Part shown: one piece after another, positions 15,848-62,033 of the stretch
Numbering within the stretch: the stretch's first letter is position 1
Layout: every line of letters begins with the position of its first letter
NCBI GenBank assembly: GCA_030568195.1
Contig: JAJLTO010000007.1
Span: 310,001 to 374,000, forward strand
Reading direction: 5' to 3'
DNA from: Dipodascopsis uninucleata var. uninucleata
Lineage: Eukaryota > Ascomycota > Lipomycetes > Lipomycetales > Lipomycetaceae
Length of the DNA stretch: 64,000 bases
Position numbers and translations under genes: made by a program
Notes under the pieces: model-generated
What the model was told of the DNA's origin: nothing
The model's input: the letters and a program-made list of their open reading frames with translations, nothing else
Databases searched by the model: none

Positions 15848-16184
15848 TTATCGAGTATATTTCACTCTATTCTCTTTTGAAAGATACCAAAATCAATATT
15901 AGCAGATTTGCCCAAAAAAAAAAAGATTTAGTATGCCACAAATCCCTTATTATACTGTCATCACGTGAATGAGGTTTTCTCACTTTATACGCTCCATAGT
16001 TTACACCAAAATGACATAGATATTCCGGTTGGGAGAAATGCTCTTTTCGTATATCATTCGGCGCTAAGATGCCATTACTCCCGTTACGAGTTCTAAAGGC
16101 TAAAAAAATTTCATGATATTTTCTGACAGGAAAATTTAGTCTGGTCGCATATTTAAGTGCAGATAGAAAAGTTTTATCAAGCAT
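15848..16184 (-). CDS. Small protein of unknown function
   Basis: An open frame starts at ATG 16184 (MLDKTFLSALKYATRLNFPV) and runs at least 73 residues through FGVNYGAYKVRKPHS. A possible intron (GTGATG donor at 15964; branch-like GCTAAT and AAG acceptor near 15878) would give about 82 residues ending RVKYTR. Unspliced, the frame continues to 15867 through a run of Phe that looks non-coding. The protein is basic, has no signal peptide or membrane helix, and matches no family I recognise. It is divergent from RPO41 across 228 bp, so a mitochondrial role is conceivable but unproven. The alternative is that it is not a gene. Confidence 0.4.
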
Positions 16185-16412: not shown

Positions 16413-19400
16413 ATGTTTGTATTAAAGCATGGTCAAAGAACTATAAATAAACGAGCGGGAACCATCTGCTCGCGAAGACAGCAACAATTCTCTAACAAGA
16501 CGAAGTCATTGAATGTGTTTTCCCAGCAAGCTGCTAGTAGGCTGGGCAGTCAGGGAAATGACTTTCCTGAGGCAGCATCTTCGGCAACAACGGCATCGTC
16601 TCTCGTAGAAGGCGGCCGCCAATCACTCAGTCTGGGGCTGAATACGGGACGCTTGATTGTTCTCGATGAGTTCCTTGATGACAAGGCTGGCATTTCTACA
16701 GATCTAAAAAGTCGGAACCAGTACACCCGAAACAAGACGCATATTCTGTCGTTGCTTGATGCACTTATTGTCAATGGTAGTCTCAAGCGAGCTGATAAGA
16801 TTTTGGAAACAGCGCATCATCTTTTAGCTCCAGAGGAGTTTAATCGTATTTGCTCGAATTTTCTCCAAGCTCTAGTGAAGCAGGATCTAGAGGATCATCG
16901 AAACATTTCTTATTCAAGAGAATGGGCACGGGATCTTCTGCAAGTCCGATTCAAAGGCCTACTAGTGCAGGATATTGTTCATGCAATTTTATTGTCGGGA
17001 GCATGTAAAATTACCGATAGCATCGAGGCTGATAAGATTATTAGAGCCGTGCTGAACGATTACATCTCGGAAACGAATCGACCACCTAGAGAGATATTAA
17101 AGTATGTGGACCTTTTTTCCTATAGAGATGTTAGAAGGATCGCACACGTTGGTAAGCTTCCTGAGGAGGATCTTCCATCTCAATTCCGAAAATCTTCGTT
17201 ACCATCATCTGAGGAAGAGAATGTTGGTTCACTGAATGAAGCTGTGAATCGCCACAACCAAAAGGTGGCCAAAGAAATTCTTAGCTCCTTGCCGCCGGAC
17301 GTTGAAAAGCCAGGATTCGACCCGCTCACACCAGTCGATTCTTTTGGTATAAAGCTACTTCGAAATGCATTAGTTGGCGTGGCTGAATCGCAGAGACCTA
17401 CAATTCCTGTGTATTCTAAATCGGAACATGAAGATAATTTCGTTGGTTTCACCAATTTTGAAGAGCAGATCGCTAATCTTCCGGAGGAAGATCAAAAGCG
17501 GTATAGAGAGGCATTTGAAGCTTACAATTATAGTCGTCAATATGCATTAGAAACATTAGTTATTGAGAACGCAAAAGAAAAGTGGAAGTATGATTACGAG
17601 CAAATGAAAGCTCGCGGTGGTGTTCGAACTAGAAATATCAACGAGTATCTCTGGGAATGGTATACAGCTATGCAAGAAAAAGTGGAAGAAGAAATAAATC
17701 GTGTCAGGAAGGTGTCGGAGTTCAAAGCCTCAGAGTCTCGCCAACTATCTGCTTCAGATAAAGCTAGAATTCGGTATGGACCTTATTTGCAACTTCTTGA
17801 TTCAAGAAAGTTATGTGTTATAACTATCTTGGAGCTTCTTAAACTCAATTCTACAGGGGGTATCTCAGAAGGTATGCGTACAGCTCGCGCGGTACTCACC
17901 GTTGGACGAGCGATAGAATCTGAATACAACTCAGAACAATTGATGAGAAAGGAAGCTACGACTATGGGATTTTTCAAGCCAACGAGATCCGTTCTTCAGA
18001 GTAAAACTGAATTTAAGAAAACATTGGCAGCGGCAAAACGAAAAAATGAACAGGGTCATTTCTTTGACTCTTGGAAACCTGACTGGCCGGAAGATATCAA
18101 AGCTGAAATTGGATCTGTTCTCATATCGATTCTCATCCACGTTGCAAAGATATCGGTTTCAGCAACGGATCCTGTCACTGAACAAAGAGTTTCTACTTTA
18201 GTCCCAGCATTCACTCACACCTATCAATTTGCATCTGGTATGAAGCTTGGCGTGATCAAAGTTCACCCAGATTTTGCTACCAAGATCTCGAAGGAACCAG
18301 CAAATGGGGTTCTCCATCCCCAGCAACTTCCTATGCTCGTTAAGCCTGAACCATGGGTTGACTGGAATACTGGTGCTTACAGATTCTCTAAGACTTCTAT
18401 CATGCGAACTAAAGACTCTGCAGAACAAACTGCATATCTAAAAGAAGCATGCCGTAAGAATGACTTACAGCATGTGTATGAAGGTCTAGATGTTCTTGGT
18501 GCCGCAGCATGGGTAATTAATGCTGACGTATTCAAAGTCGTTTCTAAAGTTTGGAATAGCGGGGAGGAGTTCTTGGACATTCCTAAGCGTTTTGAGGGAG
18601 ATATTCCATTTCCTGAAGAGCCTTCACGAGATGCCGATCCTGCGATAAGACGTGATTGGGCACGAAAATGTAAAGCTCTGGTTCATACCTGGCGTACCAG
18701 TCATTCCCAGCGATGTGACATTAATTATAAGCTCGAGATTGCAAGAGCCTTCCTAGGTGAACGAATGTATTTCCCACATAACATTGATTTCCGTGGTCGT
18801 GCATATGCTATTCCACCTCACTTGAATCATTTAGGAAGTGATCTTTGTCGTGGCCTTTTAATGTTTTGGGAAGCCAGACCTTTAGGTGAGCGTGGAATGA
18901 AATGGTTGAAGATCCACCTTGCGAATGTTTGTGGATATGACAAGGCAGACTTTCAGTCACGAGTAGAATATGTAGATAATCACCTAGAAGATATTTTTGA
19001 TTCTGCTGATCATCCGCTTGACGGAAGGAAGTTTTGGATGAAGGCTACTGATCCCTGGCAGGCATTAGCTGCTTGTATGGAACTTACGAGAGCCCTAAGA
19101 TCTCCCGAACCGTTAAAGTATAAATCGAGGCTTCCAGTTCATCAAGATGGCACCTGTAATGGTCTTCAACATTATGCGGCTCTAGGTGGTGATATCGAAG
19201 GTGCACAGCAGGTTAATTTGGAGCCTGGCGAGAAGCCGGCCGATATTTATACTCATGTTGCAAACGGCGTGCAAAATATTGTTCATGAGGACGCACTTAA
19301 GGGAGATCCAATTGCTAAGCTTCTTGATGGTAAGATTGCTCGAAAGGTTGTTAAGCAGTCGGTAATGACAAATGTTTACGGAGTTACTTATGTCGGTGCC

Positions 19401-20645
19401 AGAGCTCAGATCATGGGTCAATTGAAAGATATGCCTGATATTCCAGACGAGGCAATATGGCATAGTGCTGGATATATTACCACTCTGGTGTTCAGAGTCG
19501 TACGAAACATGTTCAGCGGTGCCCACTTGATCCAAGATTGGTTGAGTGAATGTGCTAAGAGAATTTCGCATTCATTTCCTCCAAACTCGTCTCCACAAGA
19601 AGTAGTTGCGAACAAGTGTATGACTTCCGTCGTCTGGACGACGCCTTTGGGTCTTCCAGTTGTTCAGCCATACCGTTCAGTTGTCCGTAAACAAGTCAAT
19701 ACTAATTTGCAATCGGTTTATATATCTGATCCATATGCTATGCAGCCAGTCAATTCGAGGAAGCAAGTCACTGCATTTGCGCCTAACTTTATACATTCTT
19801 TAGATGCTACACATATGCTTATCTCTGCCATGGCCTGTGGTCGTAACGGCCTTACGTTTGCTGCAGTTCATGACTCATACTGGACACATGCTGGTGATGT
19901 AGACAAGATGAATGCAATTCTCCGAGACGCCTTTATTAAATTACATGAAGGTGATCTCATTAGCAGACTCAAAGAAGAATTCGAAATCAGATATACTGGT
20001 TATTTCCAAATTTTAAAGATTCCTAAGAATAGTCCGGAAGCAGCAAAAGTACTGGCTTGGCGAAAAGAGAATAAAAAGTTAACTATACACGATGAAATAA
20101 GCTTGGAAATGAAACGTGACGCTTTATTGAAGTCAGAGGATCCTGTCAAACAAAAACAAGGTTGCGAAATGGTTACTCCACTTAGCTTATTGCACGGCTG
20201 TGATTTTGAAGAACTTTCGAAGCGTATTCCAAAGACTACGTCGAAGCCGGTCGCCTTGGTCAAAGAACGACGTGACGTCGTCAAATCGAACGAAAATGAA
20301 TATGGCGAAAAGACTTCAGATCAACTTATTAGAGAAGCGTTGGGCCTTAGCGACGAAGAAGCAGATGCAATGTTGTCGAGCAATGATGTTCAGTCAGTTG
20401 TTGAAGAAGATTGCTCGTTACTTGACGATGCTGAAGATGGGCTCGAAATTATGAAAGATACCGCAACGGATGATTCTGATCCTATGGAAGCAGATGGTCA
20501 CGATATCGATTCTAGTACAGCATCTTCAAAAGTCAGGTCTATATCTACGATCAAAATTGCATGTCCATTGACTTTTCCTGACGTTCCACCTAAGGGCGAT
20601 TTTGACGTACGTAAGCTACGAAAGAGTTTGTATTTTTTCTCATAG
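16413..20645 (+). CDS. RPO41: Mitochondrial RNA polymerase (T7-type, single subunit)
   Basis: Nuclear-encoded single-subunit polymerase that transcribes mitochondrial DNA. One uninterrupted exon encodes 1410 residues starting with a basic, Gln/Ser-rich presequence. The catalytic core is intact: DFRGRAYAIPPHLNHLG; HQDGTCNGLQHYAALGGD with catalytic Asp912; the motif B helix with Arg977, Lys981 and Tyr989 at T7 spacing (R627, K631, Y639); and VHDSYWTHAGDVD with His1153-Asp1154 (T7 H811-D812). After the palm, about 170 mostly acidic, Lys/Asp/Ser-rich residues (roughly 1205-1380) precede the terminal GDFDVRKLRKSLYFFS, equivalent to the T7 C-terminal foot. N- and C-terminal additions are usual in fungal Rpo41. 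A host gene. Confidence 0.98.
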   Translation: MFVLKHGQRTINKRAGTICSRRQQQFSNKTKSLNVFSQQAASRLGSQGNDFPEAASSATTASSLVEGGRQSLSLGLNTGRLIVLDEFLDDKAGISTDLKSRNQYTRNKTHILSLLDALIVNGSLKRADKILETAHHLLAPEEFNRICSNFLQALVKQDLEDHRNISYSREWARDLLQVRFKGLLVQDIVHAILLSGACKITDSIEADKIIRAVLNDYISETNRPPREILKYVDLFSYRDVRRIAHVGKLPEEDLPSQFRKSSLPSSEEENVGSLNEAVNRHNQKVAKEILSSLPPDVEKPGFDPLTPVDSFGIKLLRNALVGVAESQRPTIPVYSKSEHEDNFVGFTNFEEQIANLPEEDQKRYREAFEAYNYSRQYALETLVIENAKEKWKYDYEQMKARGGVRTRNINEYLWEWYTAMQEKVEEEINRVRKVSEFKASESRQLSASDKARIRYGPYLQLLDSRKLCVITILELLKLNSTGGISEGMRTARAVLTVGRAIESEYNSEQLMRKEATTMGFFKPTRSVLQSKTEFKKTLAAAKRKNEQGHFFDSWKPDWPEDIKAEIGSVLISILIHVAKISVSATDPVTEQRVSTLVPAFTHTYQFASGMKLGVIKVHPDFATKISKEPANGVLHPQQLPMLVKPEPWVDWNTGAYRFSKTSIMRTKDSAEQTAYLKEACRKNDLQHVYEGLDVLGAAAWVINADVFKVVSKVWNSGEEFLDIPKRFEGDIPFPEEPSRDADPAIRRDWARKCKALVHTWRTSHSQRCDINYKLEIARAFLGERMYFPHNIDFRGRAYAIPPHLNHLGSDLCRGLLMFWEARPLGERGMKWLKIHLANVCGYDKADFQSRVEYVDNHLEDIFDSADHPLDGRKFWMKATDPWQALAACMELTRALRSPEPLKYKSRLPVHQDGTCNGLQHYAALGGDIEGAQQVNLEPGEKPADIYTHVANGVQNIVHEDALKGDPIAKLLDGKIARKVVKQSVMTNVYGVTYVGARAQIMGQLKDMPDIPDEAIWHSAGYITTLVFRVVRNMFSGAHLIQDWLSECAKRISHSFPPNSSPQEVVANKCMTSVVWTTPLGLPVVQPYRSVVRKQVNTNLQSVYISDPYAMQPVNSRKQVTAFAPNFIHSLDATHMLISAMACGRNGLTFAAVHDSYWTHAGDVDKMNAILRDAFIKLHEGDLISRLKEEFEIRYTGYFQILKIPKNSPEAAKVLAWRKENKKLTIHDEISLEMKRDALLKSEDPVKQKQGCEMVTPLSLLHGCDFEELSKRIPKTTSKPVALVKERRDVVKSNENEYGEKTSDQLIREALGLSDEEADAMLSSNDVQSVVEEDCSLLDDAEDGLEIMKDTATDDSDPMEADGHDIDSSTASSKVRSISTIKIACPLTFPDVPPKGDFDVRKLRKSLYFFS

Positions 20646-55447: not shown

Positions 55448-56850
55448 TTATTTGAAGTCTTTATAGCTCCATTTTTCAACCACCTTTCTCTTGTACTTTC
55501 TCCCTCCAACGAAATGAACTCTCGATTCAATTATACCTCGTTCCTGTAAACTAATAAAGCGATCCTTGGCGACGCTACCTTCTGGCTGTTAAGAAACAGT
55601 TAGAGAATAAAATTCTTACAATATCCTTCTTCATCATACCTTGATTAACCTCATAGAATCAGTAAGTTCATCTGACAATTTGACTTCCAGTGGTCGCCGC
55701 ATTACACTACTTAGATGTTAATATAGAGCATTATTCCGAATATTATTTAGCTACACATACCGATGCTTTCCAAGTTTGTGCTTTCGCACTCCACTATTAT
55801 TTCTAATCAAACTAATCTCAGTTCGCGATGATTTTTGGATGACACTCTTCTCGGACTGGCGACGATCTGCTGCATCTGGCGAATTCTCCCTTTTGATAGC
55901 TGTTCCGTCTAGCTTTTCAGTAAATATTTTATCATTTGACTCTTCACTCCGCGCAGCTTCGTCATCAGAAGAAGCCTCGTCCAAGCCAGCCCTCTCTCGC
56001 GCATCTAGCAACTCGCCAAGAGCCTCAATCCTAGCCTGTCGCTCCTCCTCGCGTTTATGCTCCTTCTCCTGTTTCTCGAGAACAGCATGCTCTCTAGCCA
56101 GTAGTGACTGCCATGACTGCAATGTTGGATTATAAGACTTTCCTTCTTCAGGAAGTTCAACTGCTCGTGCACTCTCTCTAAAAACAATTCTGGGCCTGTT
56201 GATAGTGGACGGTACGTTTTTCGCCTTTGCAAAACTAACTGTTTGGCTAAGCTTTATATGCTCAGCATGAAACCCAAGTTTTGTGTCTTCTTTTTTCTTT
56301 CTCTCCTGTACGTCCTCATAGTTCCATGGATCATAAATATCCTCAGGTAGCTTGGAATCTGCTTTCAGAATCGTAACTGACTTCCCAGTAGTCGCTCTAC
56401 CTGCTACTCGCAAAAGTCTACCTAGTTCCTTATATGTCACGCCCTGTACCTTTCCTCTCTTGGAACTTTTCACATTTTCTGTACCAACAGATCGCTTTCT
56501 GGAAACCAGAGCTGGAACTGCAGATCTCTCTGCCAAGATCTCATCTACTTTAAGAGGCTTCTTGCCAACTTTCTTCAATCCGCTTTTTGATGGTGCATCA
56601 TCAACCATAAACAGCTTTGACGAGTCTGATCTCTCAGTAATTGCATCACTATACAACAGGACCTGTTAGCTAAAATCGCAGAAGTATTCTCTGCAAATTG
56701 AGACTCATATACATACCCTAGTAATCGTTTCTCTTCTCTTAGTTGTTCAAGTCCGTCTTCGACCTCTTGGATATCTATGTTCTTTCGCCATGCCCTTTTT
56801 CCCTTCCTTGAAGGTTGGACAGGCTTTTTCACACTATCTGTGGATACCAT
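55448..56850 (-). CDS. NOP53: Ribosome biogenesis protein Nop53
   Basis: Nucleolar 60S factor that docks the exosome/Mtr4 on pre-60S particles for ITS2/7S processing. Four exons (56850-56717, 56648-55761, 55709-55640, 55585-55448) sum to 1230 nt and 409 residues. Diagnostic: KRAWRKNIDIQEVEDGLEQL, SSKLFMVDDAPSK, then EDIYDPWNYED; in the second half EEGKSYNPTLQSWQSLLARE followed by a long Lys/Glu coiled coil, KLGKHR, RRPLEVKLSDELTDSMRLIK, and the closing GSVAKDRFISLQERGIIESR and RKYKRKVVEKWSYKDFK. In yeast the arch-interacting motif (L-F-x-V-D) near the N-terminus recruits Mtr4; LFMVDD fits it. It is divergent from ESF2 (320 bp). Confidence 0.93.
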
Positions 56851-57170
56851 TTCACAAATCTATAGATCAATAGTATTAAACCTATACTAAATGATATTCT
56901 ATTGGACTTTCTAATTCTATTATCAAATAAAATATACCGGGGTCCTGGTTATGAGCTTTCTCACTAAAAGGGATTTTGACCTTTCAATTTTTTGATAGTC
57001 AAAAATTTTTTTGGGAGAACTTAGTTTTCAGGGATAGGTGGTGATGATTAAATTAAGTCAATCCAAAAAAATCCTTCATCAACGGGCACAAAAGTAGTCT
57101 AAAACTTCTCGTATAGGTTTTCATCTTTATATAGTTCTCATCTGATAGTCACATACGAAGATTTTGTAAA
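56851..57170. promoter_or_regulatory. Shared promoter of NOP53 and ESF2 with RRPE-like motif
   Basis: This 320-bp gap lies between the start codons of two ribosome-assembly genes. TCAAAAATTTT at 56999-57009 differs by one base from the yeast RRPE consensus TGAAAAATTTT. CTCATCTG at 57137-57144 differs by two from the PAC core CTCATCGC. Both motifs were defined in ascomycete yeasts, and the AT-richness of the region weakens the case. Confidence 0.4.
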
Positions 57171-58283
57171 ATGCCTGAGAGCAAGAAAAGAGACTGGTTC
57201 TCTCTCGGAGGTGAATTGGAAGATGATTATCGTCATAGTGATTCAGAGAATGACATTGAACGGACTAAGAGTTCTGTGAAGTCGACGGTCAAATCTACAA
57301 CGAAACAACAAAAGAAACGTTCACGGCACGATGAAGACGCCCTGGAAAGCACCCTTGAGAGTCGATCAGGGGCAACTGGTAAACTGCCGAGTCGAAGCAA
57401 GAGGAATGCTCTTTCAGAGTTTTCAAAAGCACAAGAATCTGATAGTGATGAGTATGACGACAATGACATGCCACTCTCTTCTAAAAACGATAACTATGCT
57501 GAAGAGGCAGACGAAATTGTGACGTCCAGTGATAGGAAATACGACGAAGATGATGTTGATGAAGATGGTAATACTAAAGGTGTTTTGAGGCTGATCACTG
57601 TGGAAGAACTAGAGTCTTATCATGATAAAATCGAGAAGTCAGGAGTTGTCTACCTTTCCCGGATACCTCCATATATGAAGCCTTCTAAGGTCAGACAAAT
57701 TTTATCTCGGTTTGGAGAAGTGGATCGTGTTTTTTTGGCACCTGAAGATCCAAAAGCGTATGCTAAGCGTGTGAGATTTGGAGGAAATAAGAAGCGTAAG
57801 TTCATAGAAGGCTGGGTAGAATTCAAAAATAAAAAGAAAGCAAAATTAGCAGCCTCCACACTTAACGGTAACATTGTGGGTGGCCGAAAAGGATCATATT
57901 ATTACGACGATATTTTAAATATTAAATATCTTCCAAAATTCAAGTGGCATCATCTCACTGAGCAGATCGCCTATGAAAACCAGGCTAGACAAGCCAAACT
58001 CCGGGCAGAGATTTCACAAGCTACAAGGGAAAATAAGGCCTTTATTCGTAATGTGGAGAGAGCTAAGATGATTGAGCACATTCAAGAAAAGAAGAAAAAA
58101 AGGACTCGATCAACTAAACCAGAACTATCTGAAGATCCCACTGATTCTGTTGGTGATATTGATATTAGAAGAAATTTCAAGCAGCGGAATGTTAATAGTA
58201 GATCTAATGTTTCGGAGACTTCTACAAAAAACAGCGAAGGAGAGACGAAGTTAAAAAATGTCCTTAGCAAAATATTTGCCTAG
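57171..58283 (+). CDS. ESF2: Pre-rRNA processing factor Esf2 (ABT1 family)
   Basis: Nucleolar small-subunit processome protein that stimulates the Dbp8 helicase and pre-18S cleavages. A single exon gives 370 residues. The first ~140 residues are acidic and Ser/Lys-rich. The RRM-like core: KSGVVYLSRIPPYMKPSKVR, ILSRFGEVDRVFLAPED, RKFIEGWVEFKNKKKAKLAA, LNGNIVGGRKGSYYYDDILN and IKYLPKFKWHHLTEQIAYEN. A basic coiled segment follows. All are strong Esf2/ABT1 signatures. Convergent with NMD3 (263 bp). Confidence 0.96.
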   Translation: MPESKKRDWFSLGGELEDDYRHSDSENDIERTKSSVKSTVKSTTKQQKKRSRHDEDALESTLESRSGATGKLPSRSKRNALSEFSKAQESDSDEYDDNDMPLSSKNDNYAEEADEIVTSSDRKYDEDDVDEDGNTKGVLRLITVEELESYHDKIEKSGVVYLSRIPPYMKPSKVRQILSRFGEVDRVFLAPEDPKAYAKRVRFGGNKKRKFIEGWVEFKNKKKAKLAASTLNGNIVGGRKGSYYYDDILNIKYLPKFKWHHLTEQIAYENQARQAKLRAEISQATRENKAFIRNVERAKMIEHIQEKKKKRTRSTKPELSEDPTDSVGDIDIRRNFKQRNVNSRSNVSETSTKNSEGETKLKNVLSKIFA

Positions 58284-58546
58284 ATTGTTGTGATATTACT
58301 TTTGTTACATGAGCATAACGGTTGATTTTCTTAAAAATGGTTCGTCTAGATTTTAATATGTCATACTATTCAAATATTATCATTTATTAACCATATCCAT
58401 TACCAAAAAGTAGCATATAGAATCAAACAGTTGAACTAATGTAAAACTCGAAATAATAATCTATAAAACTTTGATAGATCTTAGGACGCATATTCAAATG
58501 AATAATAACGAATAATTTCAAAATGAAAACCTTTTTATTGCACCAT

Positions 58547-60313
58547 TTACTGCACTACCTCCTGATATCCGTCCTCTAATGTAAGTTCATCTATTTCATC
58601 AAGAAGTTCATCGAGACCAACTTCAGGGAGTGACCCAGCATCAGAACCGTCGTCATTGTCAGCCTCTTCCGCACCTTCCATTTGGGTATAAGCAGCAGCT
58701 GCATCTTGGTCTGTCTCCATAATATCATCATCTTGTAAACGAGTATTAGAAGCTTCTGTAATACCTTCCATTTTTGAAGGTCTTGGACCACGCTCTCTGT
58801 CTTGAGTTTGGGAATTCGACTGCTTGTAAAGGTTAATTGCACTTCGCAATTCTCGATCTTCCTCCAATTCTTGCAGAAATAGCTCGTAGTCACGCTCCAC
58901 TCTATCCTGCTCGATCTGTTTTTGTTTAGCAGATAATGCACTTCCGGAATCTTCCATTTCATTATATTCTTTAGCCATACGTTTAAGCCTCCAGTTTCGG
59001 CCCTTGTTGCGCTTTTTACGAGGATATGACTTCTTAACCAGGATAACTTCTGGTACGTTATCCTGATCCAGTGTATCCCACAACTCGTGGTTGAAATTGA
59101 CATTCGACAAGAAATAGCCTAAAGCAGTATCGCCAGGATGAAGGATACCGCCCAAATGAGTTCGTACATAGTAAGTATTGTCATTGCGCCCCATATCAGC
59201 AGAGCGAGCAATAGTAGCATCGGCCAGAGCCCATTTGCCTTTCATGACTCCAGTAGGCTCGATGTCAAGTACCATAAATTCACTAAAATTCGCAGCTGTG
59301 GTTAGAGAAGTAAATGGAGATCGCCAAAAGGTAGGAGGCTGAAGGTCTATGGTATCTAAAGTCATTGGATCCATAAGATGAACTGCATTTCCAACTCTGT
59401 TACATAGGACTAACTGTGAGATATTTCCTGCCGACCGAGCAATCTTCTTAGGAAGACACACAAGATCGTCCTTGCAAATAGGAATCAGCTCTACTGAAAA
59501 AGTAAACTTGAAACTCTTTACACTTGTATGTGTATCCATGGAAATCAGCTCTTCAGACTTCTTGGTCTTAATGGGTGCTACAGACGCTAAGAAATCCAAC
59601 ATTTTGATAGCATGATTCTTTTGGCTGTAGAAAAAGTCGAGACCATCTTTAGTTTCCTGAATAGAGATTGTATCTCTATGAGCATTGTGCTTAAGAATGA
59701 GTTGCTCTAAGTAAAAAAAGGTACGCTTATGAGGAACTTTTTGTCTGATCTGAACAGTAGCTCTCCAGGTATTTGCAGTAAATGATTTGGCACAATCGGG
59801 ACACTGTGTAGCTATGACAACATATTCCACCTCGAACGATTGCTGGATGATGGTGTTAGACATAGCTTCGCCTTGGACAGTGAGCTTGACTTTGATTCGT
59901 CTCGAGTGTGGTTCTGTCCATATGAACGAGGCGTCAACCAGCCTTACTTTATTAAGTCCTCGTAGTCGCTTCAAACACAGAGCGAGCAGCTCTCTGCTCT
60001 CCAGTTGTGCTGCCATCCACTGATTTGGTGGTCGGAGAAATCGCTCGCAATTTCTGCAAAAATTTAATGAACTTTCCCTTTGAATTCCGTCTGTGATATC
60101 CACTGACAACCTTACACAGTCATAGCACATAGACATACCAGTCGTACCATCGATGGGAACGCCACAATTACAACATAAAACTGTAGCTGTGTTCAGTTGA
60201 GGTATGGTATCGTTATGGACTGCTGCTGGTGCTAATGGTGTAGCACCACCATTGATGTATGCCGTGGCCGCTCCTAGACTGATATCTGAAAAAGCTGATT
60301 TATATGACTCCAT
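58547..60313 (-). CDS. NMD3: 60S export adaptor Nmd3
   Basis: Adaptor linking pre-60S subunits to exportin Crm1; it is released in the cytoplasm when uL16 (Rpl10) is loaded. A single exon gives 588 residues (yeast 518). The N-terminal zinc domain has four CxxC-type pairs: CCNCGVPIDG, MCYDCVRLSVDITDGI, FCRNCERFLRPPNQWM and CPDCAKSF. The core reads LKRLRGLNKVRLVDASFIWT, RIKVKLTVQGE, QIRQKVPHKRTFFYLEQLIL, and the eIF5A-like part contains APIKTKKSEELISMDTHT. The C-terminus is acidic with coiled regions and Leu-rich acidic stretches (LPEVGLDELLDEIDELTLED) that look like a Crm1 nuclear export signal. It is divergent from SQT1. Confidence 0.97.
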   Translation of the reverse strand: MESYKSAFSDISLGAATAYINGGATPLAPAAVHNDTIPQLNTATVLCCNCGVPIDGTTGMSMCYDCVRLSVDITDGIQRESSLNFCRNCERFLRPPNQWMAAQLESRELLALCLKRLRGLNKVRLVDASFIWTEPHSRRIKVKLTVQGEAMSNTIIQQSFEVEYVVIATQCPDCAKSFTANTWRATVQIRQKVPHKRTFFYLEQLILKHNAHRDTISIQETKDGLDFFYSQKNHAIKMLDFLASVAPIKTKKSEELISMDTHTSVKSFKFTFSVELIPICKDDLVCLPKKIARSAGNISQLVLCNRVGNAVHLMDPMTLDTIDLQPPTFWRSPFTSLTTAANFSEFMVLDIEPTGVMKGKWALADATIARSADMGRNDNTYYVRTHLGGILHPGDTALGYFLSNVNFNHELWDTLDQDNVPEVILVKKSYPRKKRNKGRNWRLKRMAKEYNEMEDSGSALSAKQKQIEQDRVERDYELFLQELEEDRELRSAINLYKQSNSQTQDRERGPRPSKMEGITEASNTRLQDDDIMETDQDAAAAYTQMEGAEEADNDDGSDAGSLPEVGLDELLDEIDELTLEDGYQEVVQ

Positions 60314-60752
60314 TATTCTCGTATGTACTATAAATAAGTACTGTAAGGATATTCCTTATAGTTGCTGCCTTTTTGTAAAAAGTGCAAAAAGTAAAAGAGA
60401 AATAGTGTCTCCCAGAGACACATAAGATGTAGTAAGAATTTTGGGGGCAAAAAAAAAATATCAAAAATAAAAAATTTCTGCTTACAAAATAAATTTGGGA
60501 GATTAATATTTATTACGTAGGAACGTGCTTGGTAAGAAAATACAGCAAATTTTCGCTAAATAGATTTTTTAAATAGATCTTGTCATCGCAATTGGAAGTT
60601 TTGCATTCAGAAAATTTATAAATTATAATAGAATATAGAATTAAGTACAGTAAGTATGGCGCTGCAGTATTTGTATAACAGATAATGTGTTGTGGGAATA
60701 ACTAGTATAAAAGTTAAGAAGGTGTACTAATAGCGTTTTGGTTTTGAGAGAC
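60314..60752. promoter_or_regulatory. Shared promoter of NMD3 and SQT1
   Basis: This 439-bp divergent region has a poly(dA) run near 60449-60458, typical of nucleosome-depleted promoters. AAAAAATTT lies at 60469-60477 (partial RRPE) and GTCATCGC at 60582-60589, one base from the PAC core CTCATCGC. A perfect short dyad is listed separately. Motif function is inferred only. Confidence 0.42.
60405..60421. repeat. Perfect 7-bp dyad GTGTCTC-CCA-GAGACAC
   Basis: The inverted repeat, with arms 60405-60411 and 60415-60421 and a 3-nt spacer, lies 92 bp upstream of the NMD3 start codon. It could be a binding site for a dimeric regulator or a 5' UTR hairpin. Confidence 0.85.
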
Positions 60753-62033
60753 ATGGATGAGCACGAAGAGCATGTTCCAGCGGAGATCAATGTAGAATCA
60801 GAAGAATACGTCGATATGGATTCTGCAGCGGATGTCATACCTGATGATCCTGAGGACGCAGACCACGAAATGTCCGATGCTTCAGATGGTGAGGATGTCG
60901 ATGGAGAAGATGAAGAGGCAGAAGAGATCGATATGTCGAACAACTCCACGACATACTTTGACCGACACAAAGACTCGATTTTCATGATAGCCACACACCC
61001 AAGTCTACCACTTGCAGTAACAGGTGGAGGAGATGATATTGGATACGTATGGACTACTCATTCAGTGCCTCCAAAGCTTGTAACTACACTGTCTGGACAT
61101 ACAGATTCTCTGATATCCGGTGGTTTTACTGCTGACGGTGAATGGCTTGTCACTGGAGGCATGGATGGTAAAATCAGAATCTGGAGGGCTCGCTCAAGAG
61201 GACAGAAGTGGGAATTCAAGGACTCAATAGAGGAGGTTGAAGAGGTTACCTGGTTATCTTTTCATCCTACACAACCTATCTTTGCTTTTGGAGCAAACGA
61301 CGGATCTGCTTGGGTTTACTCGCTGGCTTCTAAGGTCGAACAGTTATGTGTTTTATATGGTCATTCAGGAGTATGTACTGCAGGCGAATTTATTCCAGTA
61401 GCTGAGTTAGCAAGCTCACCAGATGAAGAGGAGATTAATCTTGTTACAATCGCTGAAGATGGCTGTCTTATTTCCTGGAGCATCCCAGCTGGTGTTCCAA
61501 ATTACAGACTAGATCCTTCTCAGTTCCACTTTGAGGCCGTCTGGGTTAGCTTGAAACTGCATCCAACCGGAACCTCTGTGGCTATTGGATCTGTTGATGG
61601 AAAAGTGTCCGTTATCGGTCTTCGTACCGGGAGTATAATCGCCAGTATTGATGTACTAGAAGCGACTGGAAAAGCCGACATGGCTGATGAGGAGAAGTCA
61701 ATTGAGAGCTTATCGTGGTGCGACACAATGAATATTCTTGCCGTAGGAATGGTTGCAGGCCTTATTTGTCTTTTTGACACAGGTTCCTGGCGTCTTCGGC
61801 GCTCACTTGAAGTGCCTGAAGCTGTTACTAAACTTGAATTTGTTCCTGGATCGACGGATTTGATTGTCAGCTCTATGGATGGAGTTTTACTCAAATTTGA
61901 CGCTCGCATTGGTTCTGAGACATGGAAAGGGACTGGTCATTCGAGTGGAATTCTGGACTTCTCTATTGCAAATAGCGGTCACACGATAATAACTGCATCT
62001 GATGAGGGTGTTGCATTAGTGTACAATATCTAG
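60753..62033 (+). CDS. SQT1: Sqt1/AAMP WD40 protein, uL16 (Rpl10) chaperone
   Basis: In yeast, Sqt1 is the dedicated co-translational chaperone of ribosomal protein uL16. A single exon gives 426 residues (yeast 431). ATG at 60753 was chosen; the frame upstream starts with TTG. An acidic N-terminus (about 70 residues) is followed by about eight WD repeats. Blocks: IFMIATHPSLPLAVTGGGDD followed by IGYVW, LSGHTDSLISGGFTADGEWL, TGGMDGKIRIW, VTWLSFHPTQPIFAFGANDG, LHPTGTSVAIGSVDGKVSVI and ILDFSIANSGHTIITASDEG. The order and motifs match the AAMP/Sqt1 family rather than generic WD proteins. It is divergent from NMD3, its functional partner in uL16 loading. Confidence 0.9.
   Translation: MDEHEEHVPAEINVESEEYVDMDSAADVIPDDPEDADHEMSDASDGEDVDGEDEEAEEIDMSNNSTTYFDRHKDSIFMIATHPSLPLAVTGGGDDIGYVWTTHSVPPKLVTTLSGHTDSLISGGFTADGEWLVTGGMDGKIRIWRARSRGQKWEFKDSIEEVEEVTWLSFHPTQPIFAFGANDGSAWVYSLASKVEQLCVLYGHSGVCTAGEFIPVAELASSPDEEEINLVTIAEDGCLISWSIPAGVPNYRLDPSQFHFEAVWVSLKLHPTGTSVAIGSVDGKVSVIGLRTGSIIASIDVLEATGKADMADEEKSIESLSWCDTMNILAVGMVAGLICLFDTGSWRLRRSLEVPEAVTKLEFVPGSTDLIVSSMDGVLLKFDARIGSETWKGTGHSSGILDFSIANSGHTIITASDEGVALVYNI

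Follow-up and report, generated by a model that had tools for sequence, protein, structure and literature searches.

A tail-to-tail arrangement of two divergent ribosome-biogenesis gene pairs in Dipodascopsis uninucleata, and a candidate element in their shared promoters

Genes and layout of the block

The window analysed here is a stretch of 64,000 nucleotides (positions 310,001 to 374,000 of contig JAJLTO010000007.1, assembly GCA_030568195.1) from the 16.2 Mb genome of Dipodascopsis uninucleata var. uninucleata. Four genes, NOP53 (-), ESF2 (+), NMD3 (-) and SQT1 (+), fill positions 55448-62033 of the window in the arrangement (- +)(- +), i.e., as two divergent pairs, with gaps of 320, 263 and 439 bp from left to right (Table 1). 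All four are ribosome-biogenesis genes and immediate neighbours, as in an RRB adjacent gene cluster, and they belong to four Pfam families (Nop53, RRM, NMD3 and WD40) and are not tandem duplicates. Esf2 has a role in the SSU processome, and Sqt1 is the chaperone of uL16.

The original prediction had named these four genes in this order and orientation, and matches to Pfam families, PDB chains and homologues bear this out. It had also held that no unrelated gene lies within the block, and none was recognised between the four members in 55448-62033, whether among open reading frames, tRNAs or Rfam families; in the window, no tRNA was found (under bacterial settings) and no Rfam gene matched at gathering score. 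To the left, the block is flanked by a protein with TRP-channel domains; to the right, the flanking frame runs past the end of the window and its first 353 aa, which lie inside, gave no match in Pfam, and no further RRB gene was recognised adjoining the block. About 17.6 kb beyond the block, and not adjacent to it, there is a NUFIP1-domain protein (L003:5617-6651, at about 389.6 kb of C7), possibly an Rsa1-type snoRNP assembly factor.

For NOP53, a simple search for donors and acceptors gave a model with four exons and three introns that stays in frame to the stop codon. The spliced product of 408 aa scores 250 bits against Pfam Nop53, compared with 124 and 50 bits for two unspliced pieces. 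An alternative acceptor for intron 1, located 14 bp upstream, was rejected since it disrupts the frame. Position 55448, at which the original prediction had the block begin, is the end of the NOP53 stop codon. NMD3 and SQT1 match PDB chains bearing their own names (1.2e-224 and 3.5e-87, respectively), and the SQT1 protein is 100% identical to an entry named Dipodascopsis uninucleata. ESF2 matched no PDB chain named Esf2, its best weak match being Nop15, another RRM protein; among the best 120 of its 882 homologues, identity is 52-57% in Lipomyces and Myxozyma and 48% in Limtongia, and some further matches carry the name Esf2.

Table 1. Positions of the genes, intergenic regions and candidate promoter motifs of the block (window coordinates)
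Feature	Position	Strand	Motifs or basis
NOP53, pre-60S factor	55448..56850	-	in-frame splice model, Pfam
NOP53 exons	56850-56717, 56648-55761, 55706-55640, 55585-55448	-	best in-frame model
NOP53-ESF2 putative shared promoter	56851..57170		AAAAATTTTTTT at 57001, TGGGAGA at 57012, CTCATC (PAC core) at 57137
ESF2, RRM protein, single exon, 370 aa	57171..58283	+	Pfam, homologues
ESF2-NMD3 convergent intergenic region, 263 bp	58284..58546		no gene recognised
NMD3, 60S export adaptor, single exon, 588 aa	58547..60313	-	Pfam, PDB chain
NMD3-SQT1 putative shared promoter	60314..60752		TGGGAGA at 60408 (-) and 60496 (+), AAAAATTT at 60470, GCGATG (PAC-like) at 60584
SQT1, WD40 protein, single exon, 426 aa	60753..62033	+	Pfam, PDB chain

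A composite sequence in the shared promoters and across the genome

Each of the two regions between divergent genes contains TTTGGGAGA close to an A-tract/T-tract resembling the RRPE, so that the tract expected of an RRPE-controlled RiBi promoter is present in both as a putative element. The combination of A-tract/T-tract and TGGGAGA has its strict form in the NOP53-ESF2 promoter and only a relaxed form in the NMD3-SQT1 promoter. The full consensus of the PAC element is GCGATGAG; it is absent from both promoters of the block, which have partial cores only. TGGGAGA is not over-represented in the window as a whole (6 occurrences against 6.4 expected); three of the six fall inside the 759 bp of the two promoters, a post hoc count, as the motif was first read there.

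RRB genes outside the block were found via the Pfam families Brix, DEAD, Utp12, MMR_HSR1 and RsmB-F, and the upstream sample comprised 26 RRB and 62 other regions, excluding nine ambiguous open reading frames and any locus that had been retrieved with the motif. Labelling of the RRB genes was not blind, several labels having been given once the motif was known, and many are presumed identities based on the look of the sequence. TGGGAGA is present in 7 of the 26 RRB regions and in 1 of the 62 others, which places it first of 4840 7-mers (p = 6.6e-4, uncorrected). Two of the seven hits are a single region that serves both a DBP7-type helicase and RPC5; counting it once gives 6/25 (p = 0.002), and if only RRB labels predating the motif output are used, 4/19 (p = 0.01). 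The motif is missing from 19/26 RRB regions, partly because some of the sampled starts are internal exons. A long A/T tract likewise distinguishes the two groups (9/26 against 4/62, p = 0.002), and the PAC cores show no significant enrichment in this sample (GATGAG, 5/26 against 5/62, p = 0.13; GCGATG, 4/26 against 5/62, p = 0.25). Two other candidates were set aside: the E-box CACGTG as a common signal (0/26 RRB, 3/62 other) and GGGAGA, i.e., the motif minus its leading T, which does no better than TGGGAGA (7/26, 7/62, p = 0.07). The sole carrier of TGGGAGA among the 62 non-RRB regions is a gene with single-subunit (mitochondrial-type) RNA polymerase domains (16413-20645), the motif lying about 380 bp upstream at 16030-16036.

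A genome-wide count without gene labels is the stronger test. The strict composite was defined as AAAAWTTTT 0-30 bp from TGGGAGA, in both orders, with the reversed pattern as control, and it occurs at 12 distinct sites (5 + 7 by order; 16 raw) compared with 0 + 1 for the control. At a spacing of 31-60 bp the counts are 1 + 2 and 1 + 3, respectively. When the tract is relaxed by one base there are 18 distinct sites (21 raw, control 0) in one order, both promoters of the block among them, and 12 (16 raw, control 2) in the other, giving 30 distinct sites against 2 controls.

Eleven strict sites fall outside the block, and at 6 of them the search tools identified a neighbouring RRB or Pol I/III gene, namely NOP7, NOP14, RPA190, NIP7, SSF1-RRP3, and an SPB4/DBP7-type helicase with RPC5. 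Two further sites adjoin genes which we take to be NSR1 (an RRM protein) and FPR3/4, the latter without a match in the searches run, and their inclusion would bring the count to 8/11. If a random site is assumed to have a 10% chance of an RRB neighbour, 6/11 corresponds to p = 3e-4 and 8/11 to p = 1e-6. One of the relaxed sites (C2:320446) is followed, after about 260 bp, by the open frame of a gene with a Utp12 domain. The other three strict sites (L068, L069 and L079) have no RRB gene in view. At two of them, L079 (C5:493399) and L068 (C2:508929), no recognisable protein or Rfam gene is found beside the element in the stretch examined, so that noncoding genes, considered as an explanation for such sites, were discarded for want of an Rfam match; at L068, GGGGATGAG sits between the A/T tract and TGGGAGA.

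The same genome contains other divergent pairs of RRB type, namely SSF1-RRP3, a DBP7-type helicase with RPC5, and a DBP4-type helicase with a REX4-like exonuclease, the names DBP4, DBP7 and REX4 being our presumed assignments. The last of these (L012:1-3510), with an A-tract/T-tract between its two genes, is likely to be an RRB pair. Among the papers listed in literature searches, none was relevant to TGGGAGA as a ribosome-biogenesis element.

Linkage in relatives and the chance of a run of four

Linkage was scored from protein searches with ESF2, NMD3 and SQT1 (the best 120 of 882, 3719 and 168 matches, respectively), two genes being called linked if they lay on contigs of equal size in the resulting tables, which is a statement about contigs and not about adjacency. 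Each table row stands for a cluster of proteins at 90% identity and shows the longest contig in it, so strains may be mixed, as in L. starkeyi; L. chichibuensis, L. tetrasporus, L. doorenjongii and Kockiozyma, each named for one gene only, were dropped from the counts. The original prediction had put absence of the cluster from all close relatives, together with uncorrelated expression, as a reason to give it up, and such an absence is not what the contigs indicate. Among the matches listed, ESF2 and NMD3 are linked in five of seven other Lipomycetaceae (L. arxii, Limtongia smithiae, L. oligophaga, L. kononenkoae and Myxozyma melibiosi) and on unequal contigs in L. japonicus and the mixed-strain L. 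starkeyi clusters; NMD3 and SQT1 are linked in three of eight (L. arxii, Limtongia and L. oligophaga) and on unequal contigs in L. kononenkoae, Myxozyma, L. japonicus, L. starkeyi and D. tothii; and the contigs of ESF2 and SQT1 are unequal in L. orientalis too. Thus, at contig level for ESF2, NMD3 and SQT1, the block is not private to the D. uninucleata genome. Chance would give such linkage with probabilities of about 2e-5 (5/7) and 0.01 (3/8) if the species were independent, which they are not, and if each genome were 16.2 Mb, as assumed for all. Slow rearrangement alone could produce the contig linkage seen in the Lipomycetaceae.

Outside the family, again among the matches listed, NMD3 and SQT1 are linked in one of 14 named species, Scheffersomyces xylosifermentans; among the 13 others, S. 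stipitis, whose entries belong to separate assemblies, and Wickerhamomyces, with its short contigs, are weak negatives. ESF2 and NMD3 are linked in two of five named species (Tortispora and Yamadazyma), on megabase contigs where linkage has little meaning, and unlinked in Sugiyamaella, Pachysolen and Spathaspora sp. JA1.

The frequency of runs was simulated with 6000 genes, the gene numbers being assumed and the block having been singled out post hoc. In random order, a run of at least four RRB genes appears in 0.6%, 1.8% and 3.2% of simulated genomes with 200, 250 and 300 RRB genes, respectively. With 250 RRB genes and pairing rates taken from PMC3500266, the figure rises to 12% for S. cerevisiae-like pairing and to 35% for C. 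albicans-like pairing (24%). Published rates differ: two sources give 44/282 RRB genes adjacent in S. cerevisiae (PMC3500266) and 28/305 ribosome-biogenesis genes clustered in C. albicans, close to random (p = 0.053; PMC7911571), and pairing as low as the latter would lower the expected chance of a run of four towards the 2% of random order. Since the expectation thus ranges from about 2% in random order to 12-35% with pairing, the run of four RRB genes is unusual, not astonishing. In an informal look at other RRB seed genes, many of the neighbours in view were not RRB genes. Runs of three are described as rare in the part of PMC3500266 available, where the sole run of four mentioned is the maltose cluster, and no paper naming NOP53, ESF2, NMD3 and SQT1 together was found in the literature searched.

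Interpretation and comparison with known systems

The reading we favour, and consider likely, is that the block consists of two divergent RRB pairs placed tail to tail, each with a shared, bidirectional, element-bearing promoter, and that the pairs are co-regulated. Each pair would be read from its shared promoter, in which the RRPE-like A-tract/T-tract lies within 30 bp of TGGGAGA; the composite element would be bound and would drive transcription in both directions, growth-responsive factors acting on it would raise or lower all four genes together, the four transcripts would be co-regulated, and selection for this co-regulation would hold the genes together. As judged from the promoter sequences, expression of the four genes probably rises and falls together, because the promoter of each pair carries the signature found beside other RRB genes.

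The four genes may also owe their proximity to chance or neutral inheritance, the pairs having formed singly and two of them having become neighbours by rearrangement, in a family where gene order changes slowly; there would then be no four-gene unit. We hold this to be a genuine possibility, if a somewhat doubtful one; it overlaps with the favoured reading, which requires shared promoters only, so that belief in one does not exclude the other. It is in keeping with the 12-35% of genomes in which the pairing rates in PMC3500266 predict such a run, with the post hoc choice of the block, with the convergent orientation of ESF2 and NMD3, which have no common promoter, with NMD3-SQT1 linkage missing in five of eight relatives (among the matches listed), and with a 17% chance that some two of the 30 element sites would lie as close as these. 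Yet the most persistent linkage is the one between the pairs (ESF2-NMD3, as counted above among the matches listed), which would count against neutral inheritance if it exceeds the background rate of contig linkage in the family, and the near-random clustering in C. albicans, as given in PMC7911571, would bring the expectation nearer to 2%.

The original prediction had suggested that the block could be a co-expressed domain. As a single chromatin domain over all four genes, in which the promoters act on each other, it would by analogy resemble the promoter sharing over long distance between convergent RRB genes described for MPP10-MRX12 in S. cerevisiae (PMC6001612). The contig linkage of the convergent genes ESF2 and NMD3 in five of seven relatives (among the matches listed) would agree with such a domain, but each promoter has an element of its own and mutual dependence of the promoters is therefore not needed. 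We regard the domain as unlikely, and two adjacent bidirectional promoters fit the data at least as well.

With this block, the clustering of adjacent genes for ribosome assembly reaches a run of four in the Lipomyces family, and linkage in relatives offers a way to tell selection from slow rearrangement as the force that preserves blocks of this kind. TGGGAGA is a candidate through which one of the largest growth regulons of yeasts may have been rewired. A wider and more tentative suggestion is that in Dipodascopsis, and perhaps in the Lipomycetaceae at large, RRB genes are under a composite element where TGGGAGA, read by some factor, lies next to the RRPE tract at the position occupied by PAC in other budding yeasts, and that RRB genes cluster where one element can serve two of them, the block being the largest case so far.

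Neighbouring RRB genes have been described before, for the most part as pairs, and the statement in the original prediction that clustering of ribosome-biogenesis genes was already known agrees with PMC3500266. As far as the accessible portions of PMC3500266 and PMC6001612 describe them, the adjacent RRB genes of budding yeasts resemble the present block in being neighbours, in all orientations, without tandem duplicates; they differ in that they are mainly pairs, whereas the D. uninucleata block has four RRB genes in a row, and in that co-expression, which is predicted for the block, is their defining result. The RRPE half of the composite element is likewise already known: compared with the RRPE/PAC RiBi promoters treated in the part of PMC2570694 available, the A-tract/T-tract resembles the RRPE and each promoter of the block has a PAC-like core, whereas in the D. 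uninucleata RRB sample it is TGGGAGA that is enriched and the PAC cores are not significantly so. According to the same portion of PMC2570694, where the Lipomycetaceae do not appear, PAC is present in nearly every hemiascomycete that was examined, Yarrowia being the exception. In the present lineage, TGGGAGA may be a specific partner of PAC or a substitute for it.
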